NCBI RefSeq assembly: GCF_965363235.1
Contig: NC_134846.1
Span: forward strand, 5,647,001 to 5,711,000
Length of the DNA stretch: 64,000 nt
Reading direction: 5' to 3'
Source of the DNA: Mytilus galloprovincialis
Taxonomy: Eukaryota; Mollusca; Bivalvia; Mytilida; Mytilidae
A program made the translations under genes and the position numbers. Position 1 is the stretch's first letter. Every line of letters starts with the position of its first letter. Below, piece after piece: positions 2,793 through 58,721 of the stretch. The notes beneath the pieces were generated by a model. It saw nothing but the letters and a program-made list of their open reading frames with translations, was not told the origin of the DNA and ran no database searches.

Positions 2793-3869
2793 ATACTGTT
2801 CCCAGGTTGGACTGATATCCTCACCCGGCCTAACTTGCCGGAAAAAAGACCACAAACAAAACTCATGAAAAAAACAGTAACAAAACATTACAAAAACAAA
2901 GAACAAATAAAATTAACCAAAAAGCGAAACCAATAAAATATTCAATTTAGCTGGGACATAATACATTCATAATAGTCCCAGAATAAACATGTAAAAAAAT
3001 CAACTTCCATGCAAGGACCGTTAAAACCATGTTTTGAGACGACCCTCCGTGATACACACAAAACTGTGACGTATTTCACATTTGGAGTCTGGATGAATAC
3101 AAAATTTATATTTTTAATCTGAAGTACAACACTTTTAAACCAGTAGCCAACAGAGTAGAAATTATCTGAAGAAGAAAAGGTAAAGAAAGAAAAATGCACT
3201 TCAGATGTATATCGAATGTGCTATTTGGGTTTTTTTTTTTCATATCAAAATTATTATATCTGATAATCTGTTTCCAAAAAACAAGAGTTATAAACATTTA
3301 AAAAATATTTGTTAATATGACCAGAGCTCAGTCTGTTTGTTTACTTTAACCTTGTGTGTTTCAAAAATAAAGTTTGGACGGTTTTAAGGTAATTAGTATT
3401 TAAACTCACTTAGACATGTTAGACGTAATCTTTTGATGCATTTCATAACGGGTTTTGTTTTATAGTTGAATATAGTAGAGTCATTGTCGGATACCATTTC
3501 TCTTGCAAGGCTGCTGAGAACCAATTAATCCTCATTGATCCATGTGGTCTGATCTCAGGATAGGAAGGTATATATGTATATATATATATAGGCATTCCAA
3601 GACATGTGCAGGTACAATCATTCAGAATTCATAGGATAAAAAAAAAATCTGATGTAAGGGTTTAAAGGTTTGGGGTAGGACACCTCATGCTGGTTTTTTT
3701 TCTGTTGATAATATGAGGGAGCAAATTTATACAATTAAGTTACAAAATAAAGAGAATGCAAGTGTTGTCCAACCCAAACCCTCTTGCTTTTTATTTTTTC
3801 TGGAATAGTGTATTTGCGAAACAAACAAAAAACACTTTTGATTACAGTAAATGCATAGACAAAACATAC
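2793..3869. other. Intergenic, AT-rich, with a short TA microsatellite
   Basis: No gene is supported. A (TA)n tract lies around 3570-3590, and there are A and T homopolymer runs. Small frames here have no recognisable motif. Confidence 0.5.
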
Positions 3870-39600: not shown

Positions 39601-41862
39601 TCTAAAATCGAAAGAAAGGAATTCTTGAATCTGCTTAAATTTTGGTAAATGACCTTTCATGAGCTATTGAAGTCTAATGTGAAAATAAAATGGGTGTTAT
39701 GGGGCAAAATATTTACCCTGTAACGTTGGGAAAAAAGAAACATCTGACACAAATTCCTAAACCTGACCTAAGTACATCCTTAATTCAAGTAATGCACCTT
39801 TTATTGGAGATGTTGCAGAACTGATGTATTTAGATACGTATACGTATCGAGGTATCCATATACATGATATACATGCGATATAGTTAAAATGAGTTTCTTT
39901 TATTCTGACCCGATGACTTAATCAATGTACATGTATTAATCAAATCAAAAAGTGGTATTTTTCATGTGTACTTGGTTTCTACTTATTCTTTATTTGTATA
40001 CAAAACATTGAAGTACCGAAGAATGACATTTAAAGATATGAAACAGTTCATAATGTAACTTCTAGATTCGAGTGTATCTTACTACTTTTGAGTGGACGTT
40101 AACTACTAAAGAATAATCCTAAACGTGTGTAGTTAAAAATATATGCAGGTTTCCTTATGTATTAATAATTTAAGTAAGATTATTGAGAACAAGGTCATTT
40201 AGGCATTTTCACAAGAAAAATCTTGGCGAGATGTTAAATTATTCTCTTTTGCTATTCATAATTCACCCAGGTATGCAGGCGTAGGGCATTTCATATCTTG
40301 CAATTCGCTACGGTACATGTTTATGTTTGTTAAACAAGACGTGAGTATTTTGTTTTGCTTATTTATCCCTACATAGTTACTGTACTTTGACGAAATCCAG
40401 ATAAAAAATTAAAATCGTTTTAATGAAAGACAAATTGTCACAAAACTACTGATTTTGGTAGGTTATATAATTTTTTATCTTAAAGATGCATATATAAAAT
40501 TACGTTGAAATAAGTGTCCACATAAATGTAAGAGATTGTTCTGTTAAAAACATTTACCTGCATCTCTGCCCAAGCAACAGTATTCGTAAGAAAATCCTTA
40601 AAATTGGTAACAATCTTATCATGTTAAGAACGTCAGGTACACCATACTTATTCAAGCGAGTTTGGGTCACCTGTTTCGTCCTTTAAATTTATAATACAGG
40701 AACAAAGCTAAATGTTTATATACTAACATTAAATTGTTGTATTACTAGAAAACAATTTATATTGGTCAAGTGAAATATATTTGTAATGAGTCATCATAAC
40801 ATAGTAGGCGTGTTTGAATTTAAAAATAACGTTGTGCTAAATTGTTAAACGTCTTACTGGTCAATGCATTCAATAACATTTGACCAACTATTAAAATAAA
40901 ATTAAGTCATACTAATTATCTTATTCATGAAAATGTACTTTCTATAGAAGCCGGATGTTCGTCCCTTCTTCCCTTTTTATGCCAAAAAACTTGACGAGTC
41001 TTTACGTTTGAATCTTTAAAAACAAATAACGTTTTGATGTGTTCAGTTACGTTTAGCCCTCAACTTCTGAACTTTCTTGTCAACCCTTTCACGGAATATT
41101 TTCATAAAGTTTTTAAGAATAGCAGATTTTTATTGAAATTTCCAAAATACGCCTTGACAAACAATAATACGTTGGGGGCCTCGGTTGGTCAAAGTTGTCC
41201 CCTACTTTCACCTGGAGATCAATCTTCTGATACCTCTCCGGTTTGTCTGTTTCCGCCGAGTGGTCCGGTGGTTCTCTCCGAGTACTTCGGCTTCCTCCAC
41301 CACAACAACAGACTTCCCGGTGTCCTAGCACTCCCTTGTGTTGGGTGGGGATTGATTGTCCTTGTGAAAAATTGTCGTAGTTATACGTTAGTGACACATC
41401 TCCATTAATCCCGATAAGGAGTGTACATGGATGCCTCTGTACCCTCGCAGCTTTCGATGGGTTCTTCTGATAACGGAGGCATTTACCAGTACATACATAC
41501 AATACAATAACTTTACGTATTACAAGGACATACACATATATTAAATGAAAAAAAAAAAACGTTTGCCTTTCCGAATACAACGTTCACGTACGGATCGTAA
41601 TGAAACAATGCGAATACAATTAACGAAAACGTGTCATCTCTAAGTACATCCTTAAGTATTATTTTTATCACATATTGAGGAAAGATAGAAACAATGCGTA
41701 GTGATCTGACTAGATGTTCAATGTCGTCAAAGAGACTATTTTGAAGAAAAAAAAATGCTGACAATATAATATCATTTGTGATGAAATATCAACATTTAGA
41801 AAAAGAAAATTATTTGACTTACCCAAAGCAAGGCCGAACTGAAGGATTACCAAAACCAACAT
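33481..41862 (-). CDS. Gene B1: secreted 12-cysteine protein of unknown function, five joined exons (179 aa)
   Basis: The exons in transcription order are 41862-41823, 37372-37231, 35323-35211, 34252-34150 and 33622-33481, 540 coding bases with every junction in phase and at GT/AG sites. The protein starts with a signal peptide, MLVLVILQFGLALVAG. The mature part has cysteines at 25, 31, 60, 69, 75, 93, 106, 119, 132, 141, 148 and 169, enough for six disulphides. Landmarks are FFYDGDTLKDV, MDFVTEMMADIERAVC, PCYNEPEFRSKFVEC and NCASMFQQC. It is probably secreted and compact. I do not recognise the family; the cysteine spacing vaguely recalls DUF19/T20D4.11-type domains, which is only a suggestion. 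B2 and B3 are paralogues. A TATA box lies at 41926-41933. Intron 1 (4.45 kb) is repeat-rich. Confidence 0.85.
34150..34252 (-). CDS. Gene B1 exon 4
   Basis: The acceptor is ATTTCAG and the donor GG|GTAAGT. It codes IQGLTPCYNEPEFRSKFVEC and then SFTGYDPNTC. Confidence 0.88.
35211..35323 (-). CDS. Gene B1 exon 3
   Basis: The acceptor is TTGCAG and the donor G|GTTTGG. It codes HLKKQSVCKKADKCKVMDFV and then EMMADIERAVCVEYKK. No start codon opens this frame at the exon edge. Confidence 0.87.
35735..35935 (+). repeat. Dispersed 'gatgaggtatgattgcc' repeat in B1 intron 2
   Basis: It has 'gagacagccatccacc', 'gtcggctataaaaggcccga' and 'aaactaacggcctaac', the same subfamily as 59147-59335. It is absent from B2 intron 2, so it inserted after the duplication or was lost from B2. 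Confidence 0.8.
36493..36582. repeat. Left arm of a 90-bp inverted repeat around B1 exon 2
   Basis: It starts 'tataaaatttcctttttata' and ends 'caaatatcagataactt'. Its inverse is at 37661-37750 with only a few differences. A (TA)n tract lies immediately to the left, and an AT-rich hairpin (36584-36639) lies immediately inside. Confidence 0.85.
36584..36639. repeat. AT-rich hairpin
   Basis: 'atatcttattatatata' is followed by its reverse complement 'atatataataagatat', with stems of about 18-24 bp and a loop in 'aaatataaac'. Confidence 0.7.
37231..37372 (-). CDS. Gene B1 exon 2
   Basis: The acceptor is ATATAG and the donor CA|GTATGT. It codes AGTSWSVPKECYPVFQC through FFYDGDTLKDVDAETVDELC. The exon lies between the two arms of a 90-bp inverted repeat. 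Confidence 0.87.
37420..37612 (+). mobile_element. SINE with V-type-like core, B1 intron 1
   Basis: The core 'ctctccgggcactccggctt' followed by 'cctcaa' resembles the central domain of V-type SINEs. It is preceded by a degraded tRNA-like head. A copy in the same place and orientation sits in B2 intron 1 (51345-51540), so it predates the duplication. Confidence 0.6.
37661..37750. repeat. Right arm of the 90-bp inverted repeat around B1 exon 2
   Basis: It is the inverse of 36493-36582 and includes 'aaccaacgtcgaacttttgt' and 'cgaggggttttta'. Neither arm occurs in the B2 copy. Confidence 0.85.
37777..37985. mobile_element. TIR MITE 'tactgtaaattcag'
   Basis: Inverted ends 'tactgtaaattcagattt' and 'atttctgaatttacagta' enclose about 170 bp of 'attattgcg' and 'tcgcattttt' rich, non-coding DNA. 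Terminal TA suggests a Tc1/mariner-type target. It lies in B1 intron 1. Confidence 0.78.
37986..41159 (-). other. B1 intron 1, mostly unclassified
   Basis: Around 38100-38170 is a piece of the 'gactcatcagtgacattcga' repeat. The rest is AT-rich with no gene, array or matched repeat. B2 intron 1 is only 936 bp, so most of this 4.45-kb intron is extra DNA. Confidence 0.5.
41160..41470 (+). mobile_element. SINE with V-type-like core, second type
   Basis: The core 'gtggttctctccgagtactt' followed by 'cggcttcctccaccac' is related to those at 37420 and 51345, with a different 3' part. A 124-codon plus-strand frame across it is a repeat artefact. Confidence 0.55.
41823..41862 (-). CDS. Gene B1 exon 1 (signal peptide)
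   Basis: 40 bases code MLVLVILQFGLAL plus one base, ending G|GTAAGT. It is too short for an ORF scan and was found by comparison with B2 and by joining phases. Confidence 0.82.
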
Positions 41863-41925
41863 AGTCTTACTTGTTGAAACGAGTTTGATCTGAATATTTT
41901 ATGCTGAATATGAAAATGCCATTTA

Positions 41926-41933
41926 TTTATATA
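41926..41933 (-). promoter_or_regulatory. B1 TATA box
   Basis: TATATAAATAAA on the minus strand lies about 65 bases upstream of the B1 start codon, giving room for a short 5' UTR. Its counterpart in B2 is now at about 55455-55465, beyond the Helitron. Confidence 0.6.
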
Positions 41934-42399
41934 AGCACGACAAAGTTTAATAGTTATGAAGATAATTGACAAATTTTGATGTGTTAATTATATGATATTA
42001 TTATCAAGTACAATATCTATGGAGGTGATTGCCAAATTTTGATGTGTTAGTTTGTGTTATGGTATGTATTAAACACGCTGTGATTTATCATAAATACCAG
42101 CACGTTTTATCCATTTAGTCTCATTTGTTTAAATACCAAAGTGTTTTTCTAATAAATGTAAACATGCTTGAGTATACTAATTACAAGGCATTTGATATAC
42201 AAGTATGTTAATTTGTTTTGTCACGATTATCCTAAAATTATCAAAAATATTTATTATTTCTAAATGGGGTTTTTCATGGCTTGAAAATTCACTGCCAAAA
42301 AAAAAAAAACTCTTTATGCTTTGTATTGCTTGACATTTGTGGTTAGCAAGAATTTGATAGTCTTTCAACTTTTATGAATTGTAAATTGGTTAATTTAGG

Positions 42400-48527: not shown

Positions 48528-48666
48528 TCAAGCCCCAACATTAAATTCATGATGATTGCATATTGTTGTACCATATTCGCTGAGCATGGTTTCAGCAGTA
48601 TATGCGTGTTGATTGTATCCACACTGCTGTAACATGGAAGCACAGTTTTTCAGGCTGTCCACAAAT
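48528..48666 (-). pseudogene. Gene B2 exon 5
   Basis: It codes FVDSLKNCASMLQQCGYNQH and on to HHEFNVGA and TGA, with acceptor TAACAG. Confidence 0.83.
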
Positions 48667-49213
48667 CTGTTATTCAAAATCAAGAATTTCCAGTACATTT
48701 AATGAGATCATAATGTATCATATGTCCCTGTTTTTGTTATATCGGTTTGTCATGCAGCCACCAATGAGGATTTTTTAATATCAAATTTCCAGAATACTTT
48801 TACTTTTTATTTCGTTTAAATAAGTATGATTTAAAATGAAATTAAATCTCAGTAGAAGAGACACAGGCTCCCAAAGGAATATAGTACTGTTTCAGATTAT
48901 GAGGAATTCCTCTATGGTTTAGACATGTAACCATATTAAACATTGGTAAACTTCACAAGAATATTCACGGTAGCCGACGTTAATCTTAAACAAACCAACG
49001 TTATAACAAAAATAGAATTGTGCTATTATGAAAATTGGCAAATACAATTACGTAAAAGTTTACAAACTGAAGAAAATCTATCTGCCACAAAATATGTCAT
49101 TAATTTACAAATATTTCAAAAATTGACAAGAATTGAAAACATTTCTTTAAAAGAATTGTTGAAATACAAATTTGATCGTAAATCGTTGATATACTGCCTG
49201 AAGTAAAACTTAC

Positions 49214-49316
49214 CCACACGTATTTGGATTATAGTCTGTAAAGGAACCTTGTACACATTCCACGAACTTTGATCTGAACTCTGATTCATTGTAGCATGGT
49301 GTTAAACCTTGAATGT
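49214..49316 (-). pseudogene. Gene B2 exon 4
   Basis: It codes IQGLTPCYNESEFRSKFVEC then SFTDYNPNTC, with acceptor TTTCAG and donor GTAAGT, nearly identical to B1. Confidence 0.83.
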
Positions 49317-50269
49317 CTGAAATGTTCAAATCATTATTTGTATAGAATAAACGGATTACTAGATATGCTTTATTATAACTGGTCGAAAACATAAGTTTTC
49401 ATGACCTTTACATTTCAATGTCATATGATTATACATGGCTATAGTCTTAATCAACGAAATGCATTCTTACTCAAACAGATAACAAAAACATAATATCGAG
49501 GCATATCGTTGAGAGTCAATCCGATTCTTTCTTGTTTCTACATGTGCCATGTATTTTAACAGTCAAACAGCAATATCCTGGTATTACGATTCACCCAACC
49601 AGAGAATTCGACAAAATAATATTGAATAGCTATGCTTAAAGAGGATTTCATTAGAGAGGAAACAAAGTTAATTTGTCTGAAACTTATCTTAAACAGGTTG
49701 CTTTGTACTCTGTCATTCTTAGCGGATTTACATTTTTCCAATCAAATGTTTATTATATTTCTTTTTTTAAGCAACGACTTGTTTTCAGCTTGAATAGTCG
49801 AAATTAAATTCGGATATCAAATTTACTTTTTGTTTACTATTTGCTACTGGGACCATATCAAACAGACAAGAAAATATAGCCTCAATATAAAATAATAGAC
49901 GAACATGAAGTCAATGCATATAAAACACTAGGTATCAATATTCAAAAAAGAGATACATTCATACTTTTTCGATTTCAGATAAAATTCAACTAGCAAAAGT
50001 TGTATGCAAAATTGTACCATCTTTGACGGCATGTGTACTGTACCTCGACCATAACATGGAAATATAAATGTCATTGATTGGATACACAGATTCGTCGATG
50101 CAATACAACAAAACGTAAATCACACAGCAAGACATGCTTAAATATAAAATCTTTAAACAAATAAATATACATGAGTGTATGCACATATGTCGGCTCTAAA
50201 TGAGACGCTATGAATAACCATAGAATATTTCAATTTTATTCGATTATCTAATGCAAATGATATACAAAC

Positions 50270-50382
50270 CTTTTTTATACTCAACACAAACAGCTCTTTC
50301 TATTTCAGCCATCATTTCAGTAACAAAATCCATCTCTTTAGATTTTTCCGCCTCCTTACACACGGATTTTGTCTTCAAATGT
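50270..50382 (-). pseudogene. Gene B2 exon 3
   Basis: It codes HLKTKSVCKEAEKSKEMDFV then EMMAEIERAVCVEYKK. The B1 cysteine 75 is replaced by serine. Confidence 0.83.
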
Positions 50383-51014
50383 CTGCAATGCAATATACAA
50401 TATTAACGTATAAATCTATATAATATGAGAGTGCAATGATTCTGTTAAGAAAACCTGTTTTTGCGGATACTTCATTTCGAGTTTAGACCTTTCTAGCCGA
50501 CTTCACGGATATTTGTTTTTCGCGATTTTCTCATTCAATTGAAGATCCAAGTTTAACACATTCACTTTTTTTGTCCTACCCACGAAAGTCACGCTCTCGA
50601 AATTTAGTGGTCTGTAATCTTCTATTTCCATATTTGTCTGTTTTTGAAAACTGTAATACTATGTCAAATTAGAGGTCAAATTTTGTTTGGACGTTTGCTT
50701 ATTTACGTATACCGCACATATCCGTAAATTTATTGCTTCAAACCCAGTACTATTTTTCCGAATTTACGGTAAGATTTTGCACTAAAACTAGTACTTACAA
50801 TTTCAACATTCTCCTAAATTTAATTCACAGATAGAAAAATCTAGTATTTACAAAAAAACATGTTTTAATTGTTCTTTTTACATTCAATGGAATGCTTGTA
50901 AAACATTATTTTAAGTTTAAACACGCAGGTTAACATTTTAGTCTATTTTACCAAAGTTACATTAGTTTCGTTAAATACCGATGGTTTGCAGTTAATGACA
51001 AAATCTTGGTATAC

Positions 51015-51120
51015 ATATATAATTACTCTAAATATAAGCACAACAATGTTAAATCTGCAAATTTGCGGGAGCAAATTTTTGTTCTTCCATCGCCGGGATT
51101 CGAAATCATGCTATTGGGAT
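51015..51120 (-). mobile_element. Decayed tRNA-derived SINE piece in B2 intron 2
   Basis: The minus strand reads 'ttcgaatcccggcgatgg', 'aagaacaaaaatttgct' and 'agatttaacattgttg', matching the 3' part of the SINEs at 54534 and 54975. Confidence 0.65.
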
Positions 51121-51166
51121 ATCGAGACTGTATTTATACTATTTAATGACAAAAATATACACATAC

Positions 51167-51308
51167 TGACATAGCTCTTCAACTGTTTCTTCGCTGACAT
51201 CTTTTAAAGTATCGCCATCATAGAAGAAGTTTCCAACATCTAGAAACCTGTGAAAACAACTAAACACTGGATAGCATTCTACCGGTATATTCCATGTTGT
51301 ATCTGCAA
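51167..51308 (-). pseudogene. Gene B2 exon 2
   Basis: It codes ADTTWNIPVECYPVFSC through FFYDGDTLKDVSEETVEELC, with sites as in B1. Confidence 0.83.
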
Positions 51309-51344
51309 CTGTAATTATGTTTTGTTAGAAAATTCACTAGCCTA

Positions 51345-51540: not shown

Positions 51541-52244
51541 TTAGAATATTCTGTAACTTGTTAATATTGGATTTTTAATGACGATGTTTATGAATTATCC
51601 ATGTTATCTGACATGCTCACAATGTAAAAACTCATCAAGAATACCAGGCTTATAATTTGTTACACGAGACTCGTATGGTCAATAGCAGACTCATCAGTAG
51701 TGACTCTCGAATCAAAATAGTTTGGAGGCCTTATCAGAAACTATAATGAAGTTGTGTCAACTATGACCAATAACTTGTGGTCGAACAAACCCTTGTATTA
51801 CAAGAAATTGAACATTTTGTAAACAGTAAATTTAAGGAAAAAGAGCATATAAATGATGTCAACAAAAACATGCGGACTACTGGGCTGATTTTGTTACGCC
51901 TTTATTTAACTTTTCTTCTAAAGTTGAAAACTCGTCATTATTCATTATATTTTGATATATTCACAGATCTTGAAAACGAAATCACAATCCGCAATTGGTG
52001 TGCAAGAAAAAAAAAACATAACTTATTTGAAGAAGACTCACATTAAGCTTTTTATAACTTGAGTGATAAAAGGTACATAACTTGAGTTAAGTATTATATT
52101 TATCATATATTCAGTAAAAACTAACAAAACAAAAAAAACCGTGGTGATATGATATTGTTGCCATAGAAACTATTCGTTATCAATGCGGAAAATACAATAT
52201 TGTTAGTGAAAAATATTAGTACTAAAAAAAAAGATTTAACTTAC

Positions 52245-52285
52245 CCAAGGCGAAAGCCGACGTGAAAGAGTACCAAAGCCAACAT
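52245..52285 (-). pseudogene. Gene B2 exon 1 with +1 frameshift
   Basis: It reads MLALVLFHVGFRL plus two bases where B1 has one. The extra base lies in the 'ggctttcgccttgg' stretch (B1: ggccttgctttgg). No alternative in-frame start or donor was found nearby. Confidence 0.8.
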
Positions 52286-53159
52286 AGTTGTACTTGTTGA
52301 AACGATTTTGATCAAAATGTGTTGTGCTGAATAGAAAAATCTATACTATTAAACGAGAAGACCTGATTTTGTGTGTCGCTTCTGTTCCTTCCACAATAAA
52401 TTAATCATCATGCCTCTGTGTCTTATAGGTACCATGTATAGTCGCATTTGTCATCCATTCTTATGATTATTCAGTTTGGGTTATTTTGGGAGAAAACGAA
52501 AAATTTAAAAAATGCGTCCGGAGGTTTTTTTCCGTCATTGGACGATTCACTAATGGCACAAAATGGCCTAAAATATCAACTTAATCATAAAACAATTTGG
52601 TTCGTAAATGGGTCTATTTCAAAAGTATATATGCTAAATATATCAGTTCTTTTCATAAGAGTACAAGATATTCGCCAAAAGTAAGCCCATTTTGGACATT
52701 TTGTCAAATATGATGATTTTGTGCATTTTCCAGCCCTAAAAGGTTTTGAAACACATTGGCCGCCACTTACGATCCAAAATGTGTTGTAACCAAAATATTC
52801 CAATTTTGATATAGATTTCATCAATATTAAAACTTTTTGGATCGTAGATGGAGGCCTAGGTTAACTATGCCAAAAAAAAAATATTGAAATTATGGACAAA
52901 AAGTACCAAAATTGACCTTTTAATACAAATTATGCTCATATAAGGGATCACTGCTCCATAAATAGTAAAGGAAAGTGCCAGAAAAAATGTTTTTGTCTTA
53001 GTAGTATTATCACAAGTATTTCTATGTGAAATTCGTAATTTTTTGGCCTGATTTAAAAAACATAAAAAATACAGGGCCAATTTTAACCCTTCGTGAACCT
53101 TCTCCAAATTTTAAGTCAGACTAGACTTCCGGTTTTCGTTTTTCTGTACTTTAATCATA

Positions 53160-53860
53160 CAAAGACTATGCATAAAGTGTATTTGCTATCTATCATTTTC
53201 AAGTTTACTATCCACGGCGGTCACAGAGTTAGTTAAATAGAGAGGGTCTATATGATATGTCAATGACCGCCGTGGATCGATTAGTAAACTGAAAATTGAT
53301 AGTAAAAAGTAAATACACTTTATTATAGTAATATGAATGTTCATAATATACTAAACTACTAAACGTACGTTACAATGGCGGATCCAGGGGGGGGGGGGGA
53401 GGGGTGGGTGGGTGGGTTCCGGGATTTGGAACCCCCTTGTTTGGACGATCAATGCATTTGAATGGGGACATGTAGTTGAAACCCTTTTGCCTGGGTTAGG
53501 AACCTCCCCCTTTTTTAAAATTGCTGGATCCGCCCCTGTTCATAGTATACAGAATCACGCGAAAATAATTGTCCTGTCCCAAGTACTTATGGGTTCCTAA
53601 TCCAGGACAAAAGGGGGGGGGGTCAAACTACATGTCCCAATTCAAATACATTGATCGTCCAAAAAAAGGGGGTTCCAACCCCCGGAACCCCCCTCCCCCT
53701 GGATCCGCCACTGATGAACGAATATGTACACATATACTATAAATAATGTGTATTTGCTATTTACTACCAATTCCAATAGTTTTCTATCCACGGCGGTCAC
53801 TGATATATTTCAGTATACTACATACATATACTATGAATAAATTGTATTTGATAAAAGGAG
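53160..53860. repeat. Internal repeat units of the Helitron ('ccacggcggtcac')
   Basis: Units reading 'gtgtatttgctat', 'caatagttt.ctatccac' and 'ggcggtcac' occur at about 53165-53225, 53735-53800 and (after the MITE) 54430-54487. One inverted unit is at about 53255-53335. The unit at about 53830 is interrupted by the TIR MITE. Confidence 0.65.
53373..53713. mobile_element. Inverted pair of 'ggcggatccag' elements
   Basis: The left arm 53379-53503 and right arm 53592-53705 are inverted copies: 'gatttggaacccccttgttt', 'ggacgatcaatgcatttgaa' and 'gggacatgtagtt' recur inverted on the right. The outer ends are 'caatggcggatccag' and 'ctggatccgccactg'. No matching target duplication was found, so it is a rearranged or nested pair of the family at 488, 18338 and 23161. 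Confidence 0.75.
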
Positions 53861-54432
53861 TAGGTCCGGTAAGGGCTGATTTTGGCCTCAAAGTTCAGGT
53901 TCATCTGACGAAAGATTTTGGACTCTTTTAAAACACTTAAGTGTCTTTTTCAGTTGTTTCAATTAGTTAATGTGAAAGATTGTAACTGATTTACTCATTA
54001 TTTAAAACGCTCCGATTCTAGCTTAAATATGAAAAATCTATCAAATATGCCCAGAAAATGTCACTTTTCAGATGGTTTTTGTCAGAAATGAAAGTGGCCC
54101 CATCCGTGTTCATCCTCAACCTTTATTATCATCAAATACAACTTACATTTCGATATTAAAAATGAACACAAATGGGGCCACTTTCATTTAAGACGGAAAC
54201 CGTCTAAAATTTAACTAAAATGCTAAAATAATGAAGAGTCCTGAAGTTTAGCATGACTTAATGATGCTATTACCCGATATATGTGCATTGCATTATCAAA
54301 AACAGCCCATATTTATGTATCAGAGCATTCTTCTTTCCAATAAATAACTAAAAGTTTACATTTTAACAATGTTGTAAAACTGCTATATTTTGTGGACAAA
54401 AAAGGGTCTTACTGGACCTCCTCTTTTACTAT
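53857..54432. mobile_element. TIR MITE, copy 2, nested in the Helitron
   Basis: The ends are 'aaaggagtaggtccggtaag' and 'cttactggacctcctcttt', flanked by TA on both sides. It interrupts a Helitron repeat unit (ttgtatttg...ctataaattccaatag). It matches 15985-16578 in inverse orientation, including the internal palindrome with 'atgaaagtggcc'. Confidence 0.78.
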
Positions 54433-54482
54433 AAATTCCAATAGTTTACTGGGGGGGGGGGGTTCTTTACTTTTCACGGCGG

Positions 54483-54487
<5 letters not shown>

Positions 54488-54517
<30 letters not shown>

Positions 54518-54530
54518 TATATATATATAT
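54488..54530. repeat. (TA)n microsatellite
   Basis: This is a pure TA tract with one 'tatcatata' interruption, next to a SINE. A similar tract follows the second SINE at 55211-55247. Confidence 0.9.
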
Positions 54531-54533
54531 ATA

Positions 54534-54776
54534 GTACTGTAGTACGCCGCTAGATTAAAACTGACGAGGAAAGGTAACACACGGCCAGCGAAAGCTCTTT
54601 TTTAGAGAGCCCAGGTGGTCGTGTGGTCTAGCGGGACGGCTACAGTGCAGGCGATTTGGTGTCACGATATCATAGTAGCATGGGTTCGAATCCCGGCGAG
54701 GGAAGAACCAAAAATTTGCGAAAGCAAATTTACAGATCTAACATTGTTGGGTTGATGTTTAGACGAGTTGTATATA
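54534..54776 (+). mobile_element. tRNA-derived SINE, copy 1
   Basis: Pol III promoter boxes are present: box A TGGTCTAGCGG (54624-54634) and box B GGTTCGAATCC (54683-54693). Before them is a conserved stretch (gtactgtagtacgccgctag, cacggccagcgaaagctc). The 3' part reads 'tttgcgaaagcaaatttaca' and 'gttgggttgatgtttagacg'. It is nearly identical to the copy 441 bp downstream. Confidence 0.82.
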
Positions 54777-54974
54777 CATTATGTACACAGCCATGTATCA
54801 CTATCATTGATGGCGATCCGATGGATACATCTGTTGTAGAGTTGTCACTGACTCAGACGTACTTATAAATATAATTATTTTCTGTGACTGTATATTACAT
54901 TAATTTGTAGGATCCTTTACTATAGATAATTTAGCTGATCTGTAACAATAACATCTTCATGCCTTATATATCAT

Positions 54975-55209
54975 GTACTGTAGTACGCCGCTAGATTAAA
55001 ACTGACGAGGAAAGGTATCACACGGCCAGCGAAAGCTCTTTTTTAGAGAGCCCAGGTGGTCGTGTGGTCTAGCGGGACGGCTACAGTGCAGGCGATTTGG
55101 TGTCACGATATCATAGTAGCATGGGTTCGAATCCCGGCGAGGGAAGAACCAAAAATTTGCGAAAGCAAATTTACAGATCTAACATTGTTGGGTTGATGTT
55201 TAGACGAGT

Positions 55210-55215
<6 letters not shown>
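54975..55215 (+). mobile_element. tRNA-derived SINE, copy 2
   Basis: It is the same as 54534-54776 with only a base or so different (ggtatcac for ggtaacac), including both promoter boxes. It ends in a long TA tract where the first copy ends 'tatatacattatg'. Confidence 0.82.
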
Positions 55216-55249
<34 letters not shown>

Positions 55250-55937
55250 TGACCAGTTATAGTATATATTTATGTTCATAGTATACAGAAAAACAGAAGG
55301 AATACAAATCGGTATTTCGAAAAAAGGGGGAGGGCAAAACAAATGTGCCCGGTCCCCAAGTACCTTTGACTTTTGATACCTCTCCAGTTATACATTTTTT
55401 ACAGTTTACATACGCTTTATTTCCCCGCGATTTCACCGGTGTGTTCTAGTGTTATTTATTATATATGTGAGCGCGAAATAAGTACAATACTCATAGAGTT
55501 AATTGAGGAATTATGATGTGTTAATTACATAATGAGTTCAATATTTATAGAGATAATTGACAATTAAATGTTTATGTGTTAAATATTGTATAGTAAACAC
55601 GATGCTATCATTATAAATGCATTCACGTTTTTCATCTACTTTTGTCAAATTTGTTTAAATGCCAAGGTTTTCGAATAAAACTTATCTTGCTTGAGTTTAC
55701 TGATTACAATGTATTTAATTTGATATCATGTAAATTTGTTTTGTCACGATTTTCCTAAAAAGCGTAAAAAATAGTTTTCTCAATTGGTTCTTCCAGGGCT
55801 TGAAAAGTTCATTGCTAAAAATACTATTTATGCCTGGTATGGATTGACATTAATTTTATGAATTACTTTGGTTAGTTAGGAATTTGGACGTTAGCAAGAG
55901 TTCGATATACAGTCTTGAAGGTCATACTTACATATAA

Positions 55938-57786: not shown

Positions 57787-58072
57787 CAAGTACGGAGTAT
57801 AAACGATAGATAAACAAGTACGGAGTATAAACGATAGATAAACAAGTATGGAGTATAAACGATAGATAAACAAGTACGGAGTATAAACGATAGATAAACA
57901 AGTATGGAGTATAAACGATAGATAAACAAGTACGGAGTATAAACGATAGATAAACAAGTACGGAGTATAAACGATAGATAAACAAGTATGGAGTATAAAC
58001 GATAGATAAACAAGTACGGAGTATAAACGATAGATAAACAAGTACGGAGTATAAACGATAGATAAACAAGTA
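57787..58072. repeat. 28-bp minisatellite array, 10 units
   Basis: The unit is 'caagtacggagtataaacga' plus 'tagataaa', 28 bp, with ten full units and tacgg/tatgg variants. The unit has no stop in any minus-strand frame, so three overlapping frames of about 100-120 codons run through it. Since 28 is not a multiple of 3, the protein period is 28 residues. No gene is claimed. Confidence 0.92.
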
Positions 58073-58721
58073 TTTTCAAGATGATCAGATACATACTGCT
58101 AATACATGAAATAATCCCTGAAAAATGTTAGACTGATTTTAAAGGATTATGGAAAATATCAAACAAAGTAAAATAATTTAGGTGTAGTGTCTAATGACAA
58201 GGTTGAAGCTGTTGTCAGGGATGATTTTTTTTTATTGTTAAAAAAAAATAATAAAAAAATCGACAGAATATTGAAAATATTCTCAATTCGTCTATTACCG
58301 AGGAAGAAATTCTGACTAAAGTAAAAAATCTTAAAAACCAATAAAGCCTCTGGGTATTAATGTATTACATTTTTAAAAAAAAAATTAAAAAAAAAATTAA
58401 CTACAGTTCATTTGATGAAGCTAATATATTGTAAACTGATTAATATGATATTAAATTTTGGATAACTATGAACTGAACTACCATATAAAATCTTAAATAC
58501 AGTTTTATTTCCTCATTAAACGTAAGGGTAATTTTATTATGTACTGATGAACACAACTCTGTTATAAAGTAATTTTTATAATCAATAACATATAAACGTC
58601 ATCTTGCTTATTGAAATGACATTAAATGAAAATATATTATTAGAATACCAACAGCTATATTTGTATAGAATAGACTACGTTTTGCTATGTGTTTGTTTAT
58701 TGTACATTGGCTAGAGGTATA
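58073..58721. other. Intergenic, AT-rich
   Basis: Poly-A and poly-T tracts are present; no gene or repeat match was seen. Confidence 0.45.

Follow-up and report, generated by a model that had tools for sequence, protein, structure and literature searches.

A non-autonomous Helitron in the promoter of a duplicated gene of Mytilus galloprovincialis, its high-copy family and a likely autonomous partner

The stretch of DNA analysed here, called the window, comprises 64,000 nucleotides of the Mytilus galloprovincialis genome (G000:C9:5647001-5711000 in a 1.38-Gb assembly) and contains two paralogous genes, B1 and B2, for whose family the best Pfam match, CPG4, falls below its cut-off. B2, encoded on the minus strand, has five putative exons. 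The coding start of its exon 1 lies at 52247-52285 with the ATG at 52285, the span of putative exons 2 to 5 is approximately 48531-51321, as delimited by putative splice sites, and a TATA-like box is found at 55460-55465, all on the minus strand. Between this box and exon 1 sits a 3,110-bp insert (52340-55449, plus strand) that begins with TC, ends with CTAG and has its edge 54 bp from the ATG.

In a self-BLAST of the window, the left flank of the insert (52182-52340) matched 41754-41917 with 76% identity (E 2e-26) and the right flank (55459-55851) matched 41923-42337 with 71% identity (E 2e-47). Upon removal of the insert in silico, the joined flanks of B2 align to B1 continuously over the junction, the exon 1 side (52182-52339) being homologous to B1 41754-41916 and the promoter side (55450-55851) to B1 41917-42337. 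The empty site in B1 is thus A|T at 41916-41917, and in the same alignment the insert lies between A52339 and T55450 with no target duplication. Both comparisons bear out the earlier note on this DNA, which described 3,110 extra bases in B2, from TC to CTAG, between A and T and without duplication. The note also took the ends to be exact from the empty B1 site. The alignment is indeed continuous, but the empty site by itself leaves one edge base undecided, because the insert and the right flank both start with T, and it was the other copies of the element, which carry TCTATACTATTAA at their start on unrelated 5' flanks, that fixed the position.

Comparing two loci alone cannot separate gain from loss, and a block deleted from B1 would leave the same picture as one gained by B2. 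We found 9 matches (8 candidates) in a genome search with the B1 promoter and 6 matches (6 candidates) with the B2 right flank; those not spanning the site (C10:53262768, L055; C9:5965684, L056; and C9:5990527) were left out. All five spanning promoters (B1, L052, L054, L061 and L076) are empty. The best empty site, better than that of B1, is L076 on C10, with about 80-81% identity to B2 on each side, which reads AAAAA|TGTCATTT where B2 reads AAAAA|insert|TGTTATTT. L061 is identical to B2 in 148 of 183 columns, and L052 (G000:C9:5958282), also empty at the site, has 97% identity to B1. No spanning promoter is closer to B2 than L061 and L076, and since both are empty the insertion is placed in the lineage of B2. 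In this sense, no scar of the kind that the earlier note named as a possible refutation was seen in any B1-type promoter, and B1 does not represent a deletion because four further spanning promoters are empty too, L076 near B2 among them. In addition, the block bears family ends that are present on many other flanks. The deletion of B1 is therefore ruled out by the outgroup promoters and keeps practically no probability. A third gene copy lying to the right, with putative exons at positions 61.4-68.0 kb, gave no promoter match within the joined 90 kb and so provides no outgroup. Further copies of the B gene promoter, L052 and its neighbours, are found 270-300 kb away and extend to 5.99 Mb; they may be either recent duplicates or an uncollapsed haplotype.

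The insert is a non-autonomous Helitron enlarged by other repeats. Its family 5' terminus (element positions 1-206; 52340-52545, plus strand) has 87-92% identity over about 200 bp to 19 of the 20 other long copies, the exception being L013, which matches element 1-137 only. A 560-bp segment, nested or captured, follows (element 207-766; 52546-53105) without a match in the remaining long copies, of which most pass straight from position 206 to 767; next comes the family core (element 767-1017; 53106-53356, plus strand), recognized by comparison with the long copies in an alignment from which L011 and L013 were left out. Parts of element 1386-1508 are also common to other copies. Further downstream we found a nested repeat (53845-54430) that recurs in inverted orientation at window 16580-15987 with 82% identity and has ends that by eye resemble inverted repeats, and two plus-strand repeats in direct orientation (54524-54779 and 54965-55220), 98% identical to each other, which we take to be SINE-like. 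TA runs lie by these units at 54487-54533 and 55212-55246.

The family 3' terminal region (element 2883-3110; 55222-55449, plus strand) is a type-2 terminus, one of two variants found in the family; matches to this region begin at various points among the long copies and reach position 3110 in 11 of the other 20. It includes a hairpin (55424-55439, plus strand), with two stem bases changed relative to the family form CCCGCGATTTCGCGGG, and the terminal CTAG (55446-55449, plus strand). With RNA parameters, the folding energy of the hairpin is -1.9 kcal/mol in the window copy versus -11.3 kcal/mol in the family form, and owing to this degradation the copy may no longer be competent for transposition. 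The nested repeats and the hairpin decay, neither of which the earlier note describes, probably postdate the landing of the element. The three frames scanned within 52448-53107 gave no Pfam match at E 1 and were discarded as a Helitron coding sequence. Rfam miRNA-type matches in the insert were likewise rejected, being all far below gathering scores and located on an inverted repeat or on TA runs, and no tRNA genes were found in the window by ARAGORN.

When the genome was searched with the element ends, as the earlier note had proposed, many copies appeared with the same TC and CTAG ends. The exact 24-base 5' end occurs 2,108 times, always beginning with TC and with A immediately before it in 1,861 cases (88%), and the intact 26-base 3' terminus occurs 1,445 times, versus 0 occurrences for the reversed pattern of either. 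The first 101 bases of the element gave 43 matches from the best 40 of 1,840 first-look candidates. In 40 starts on differing flanks, a sample made without L044 (cut at a boundary) and without two inner starts of L041, the preceding base was A in 36, T in 3 and G in 1. At the other side, a 3' end was recovered by homology in 13 of 21 long copies including that of the window (12 of the 20 others, within the approximately 6 kb fetched for each), and 8 gave none; L011, with a possible 3' end by motif scan, was left out of the count. In all 13 the base after the outermost 3' end is T, while the end itself is CTAG in 12 and TTAG in L014. The family hairpin is a 16-nt palindrome, CCCGCGATTTCGCGGG, placed 10 nt before the 3' end and perfect in the 1,445 exact termini. 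The earlier note had named copies with different ends as evidence against its reading: the ends proved common to the family, but the family is not uniform, given the TTAG of L014 and the two forms that the 3' subterminal region takes.

Pairing of the ends was analyzed on C1 from the first listed places; of the 100 3' ends listed, the first 50 were used, the other half lying almost wholly outside the stretch covered by the listed 5' ends. For 36 of 100 5' ends an exact 3' end follows on the same strand, less than 12 kb downstream; 36 of the 50 3' ends used are paired, and none of the 100 5' ends forms an opposite-strand pair within 12 kb; a 3' end just upstream of a 5' end on the same strand was seen twice. 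The paired ends delimit elements of 794 to 8,405 bp, with a median of 1,270 bp. Most sampled long copies differ pairwise by about 10% or more, the best pair reaching 95.5% identity; recent activity is not evident from this divergence alone, in a sample chosen for likeness to the window copy. Taken together with the empty sites, these data make us highly confident that the insert is a non-autonomous element from a high-copy Helitron family and entered the B2 promoter at A|T after B2 diverged from its paralogues. The idea that a single duplicated locus here replaces the many copies normally needed was not sustained: because the family is high-copy, the duplicated locus is unnecessary for defining its ends, and paralogous empty sites are a routine and established boundary test for Helitrons and Helentrons (PMC4067079, PMC6544945).

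The assignment to Helitrons made in the earlier note is supported by the 5'-TC, the 3'-CTRR (here CTAG), the family hairpin before the 3' end, although decayed in the window copy, the insertion at A|T without duplication, and a Rep-helicase encoded on C5, with HUH motif, two tyrosines and PIF1-like helicase, as in autonomous canonical elements. The window element is ordinary in kind. It might instead be thought of as a Helentron or HINE-type element, since HINEs are present in bivalves and oyster elements can combine features (PMC7992393), the window copy holds internal inverted repeats, and Helitron_like_N proteins are encoded at many further places in the genome, several of them by open frames of close to 3,000 aa. 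In the window copy, the one mapped for repeats, the high-scoring arrays are TA runs. Helentrons and HINEs share with our family the rolling-circle class, the lack of target duplication and the definition of boundaries by paralogous empty sites, but differ in their T|T target preference and terminal structure (PMC4067079). Here the target is A|T, with T before only 3 and A before 36 of 40 5' ends, the family hairpin stands just ahead of CTAG, and the partner with family ends encodes a Helraiser-like Rep-helicase. On this evidence a Helentron origin is very improbable, and we retain the canonical Helitron.

The Rep-helicase was found by a PF14214 profile search of the genome, in which the best of 138 matches, C5:47637747, lies inside an element of 9,089 bp with family ends (G000:C5:47632423-47641511; L070, L062, L071, L072). 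This element starts with TCTATACTATTAAACGAGAAGACC after A and ends with CCCGCGATTTCGCGGGTATGTTCTAG before T, the flanks thus being A|TC and CTAG|T. It contains an uninterrupted frame of 1,472 aa with Helitron_like_N (3e-62), PIF1 (8e-77) and Pif1_2B (1e-16) domains, and residues 79-1447 of the predicted protein align with 115-1466 of Helraiser (1,063 bits), keeping the HUH motif and the paired tyrosines. The protein contains GLPHSHILL, KYLYKYVYKGHD and GPGGSGKT, whose roles are well established. Judged from its sequence, the C5 element is the likely autonomous partner of the window family. It resembles the window copy at 85% over about 200 bp of the 5' end, and at the 3' end only in pieces of 26 and 23 bp; its 3' end is nearer that of L024 (83% over 121 columns), a type-1 terminus. 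Because its 3' region is type 1 and that of the window copy is type 2, C5 is supported as a partner of the family and unsupported as direct source of this copy. The window copy would have been moved by the C5 enzyme or by a sister since lost, through single-strand rolling-circle replication that began at TC and ended at the 3' hairpin and CTAG.

Upon comparison of the C5 protein with the whole genome, the C5 copy is the only intact one among the best 32 of 282 candidates, so that one intact coding copy would stand for about 2,000 exact 5' ends, and others may be missed. Among those 32, C4 (59-92%, by piece) and C8 (83-93%) also carry broken relatives, C6 a broken one that is more distant (58-69%) and C9 a fragment (65%). 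The C6 Rep-helicase was rejected as partner: it has 59% protein identity and stops, and its two fetched flank pieces, which exclude 6161394-6163799, hold no family terminus. A different start, TCTATACTA with A before it, was observed at C6:6164910.

The bat element Helraiser/Helibat1 (PMC4778049; PDB 7lcc, by sequence) has the same 5'-TC, CTAG-3' and A|T target. Its palindrome measures 19 nt and lies 11 nt from the end, versus 16 nt and about 10 nt in our family (PMC4778049), and its transposase has 1,496 aa versus 1,472 aa in the nearly end-to-end aligned C5 protein. The hosts are a bat and a mollusc, and Helraiser was reconstructed (PMC4778049) whereas this assembly holds an uninterrupted coding copy. 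Closer in host, the short Helitrons of the Pacific oyster also have TC and CTAG ends, with palindromes of 16-20 bp and a mean length of 1,092 bp versus our median of 1,270 bp for paired C1 ends; 86% of them lie in A|T (PMC7992393), and here A precedes 88% of exact 5' ends. That study reports no autonomous element (PMC7992393); C5 appears to be an intact autonomous animal Helitron with family ends of a kind not detected there. A survey of bivalve transposons exists (PMC10294476). Searching by title the literature on Helitrons in Mytilus, we found no study of this family, and we do not claim its absence from print.

The insertion itself is a clean textbook case; it is the partner element and a set of double terminators that merit specialist attention. 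In 8 of the 20 long copies (L009, L014, L015, L016, L017, L019, L022 and L028) an inner hairpin and CTAG is followed by CATTTATC, and in all of these except L016 an outer terminator was also recovered. The inner palindrome is perfect in L022 and L028, the inner CTAG-CATTTATC junction occurs exactly 40 times genome-wide, and in four copies the sequence after it is 72-76% like family positions 105-204. These structures could have arisen when one element landed in a relative and the copying of later generations continued through the first terminator as far as the second, or else by template switching. The Helraiser hairpin serves as a terminator that is open to bypass (PMC4778049), and if the former reading is true, the sub-lineage would be a natural, amplified product of such bypass. 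A further step would be that a canonical Helitron system is, or was until very recently, alive in this genome, with an intact-looking C5 master serving more than 2,000 exact 5' ends and a chimeric sub-lineage carrying two serial 3' terminators; we put this forward tentatively, as a doubtful proposal. C5 and the double-terminator derivatives may provide material on Helitron termination and DNA capture without resurrecting an extinct element.

Other arrangements of the family ends were also observed. The genome contains 8 exact head-to-tail CTAG|TC joins, at L057-L060 and at four other places. In both comparable dimers, L058 and L060 (L057 and L059 were left out of the comparison), one unit differs from the other, which disfavours rolling-circle multimers, and repeated insertion is therefore preferred; a simple cause may be that each insertion recreates A|T at its own 5' edge. 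Additionally, L041 (C8:8440356-8440478) contains the first 61 bases of the element in three tandem copies, and two element starts lie 61 bp apart at C1:44862729/44862790. In L045 (C3:6646720 and 6646980) two 5' ends face each other at a distance of 260 bp between their starts, forming an inverted 5' duplication, and CTAG stands directly before the plus-strand one.

Regarding B2, transcription usually starts about 30 nt downstream of a TATA box. As the insert parts the TATA-like box from exon 1, transcription driven by this box would start in the Helitron 3' end, and the transcript would run about 3 kb antisense through the element before reaching exon 1. Such a start, together with the 60 ATGs of the antisense strand of the insert, makes it plausible from the sequence that B2 was silenced or re-regulated by the insertion. 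A real insertion may also have left B2 expression unchanged, if the gene uses another start site or had become dispensable beforehand. In favour of this alternative, each of the five putative B2 exons keeps an open reading frame, but the TATA-like box and exon 1 bracket the site in both B1 and B2, and in B2 their spacing is now about 3.1 kb greater; we consider unchanged expression a serious possibility, somewhat short of an even chance. The B gene family offers a built-in control of the effect that such an insertion has on a promoter. Finally, the window contains a tandem array (57787-58073) that is 98-100% identical to itself at offsets that are multiples of 28 bp and is open in three minus-strand frames.
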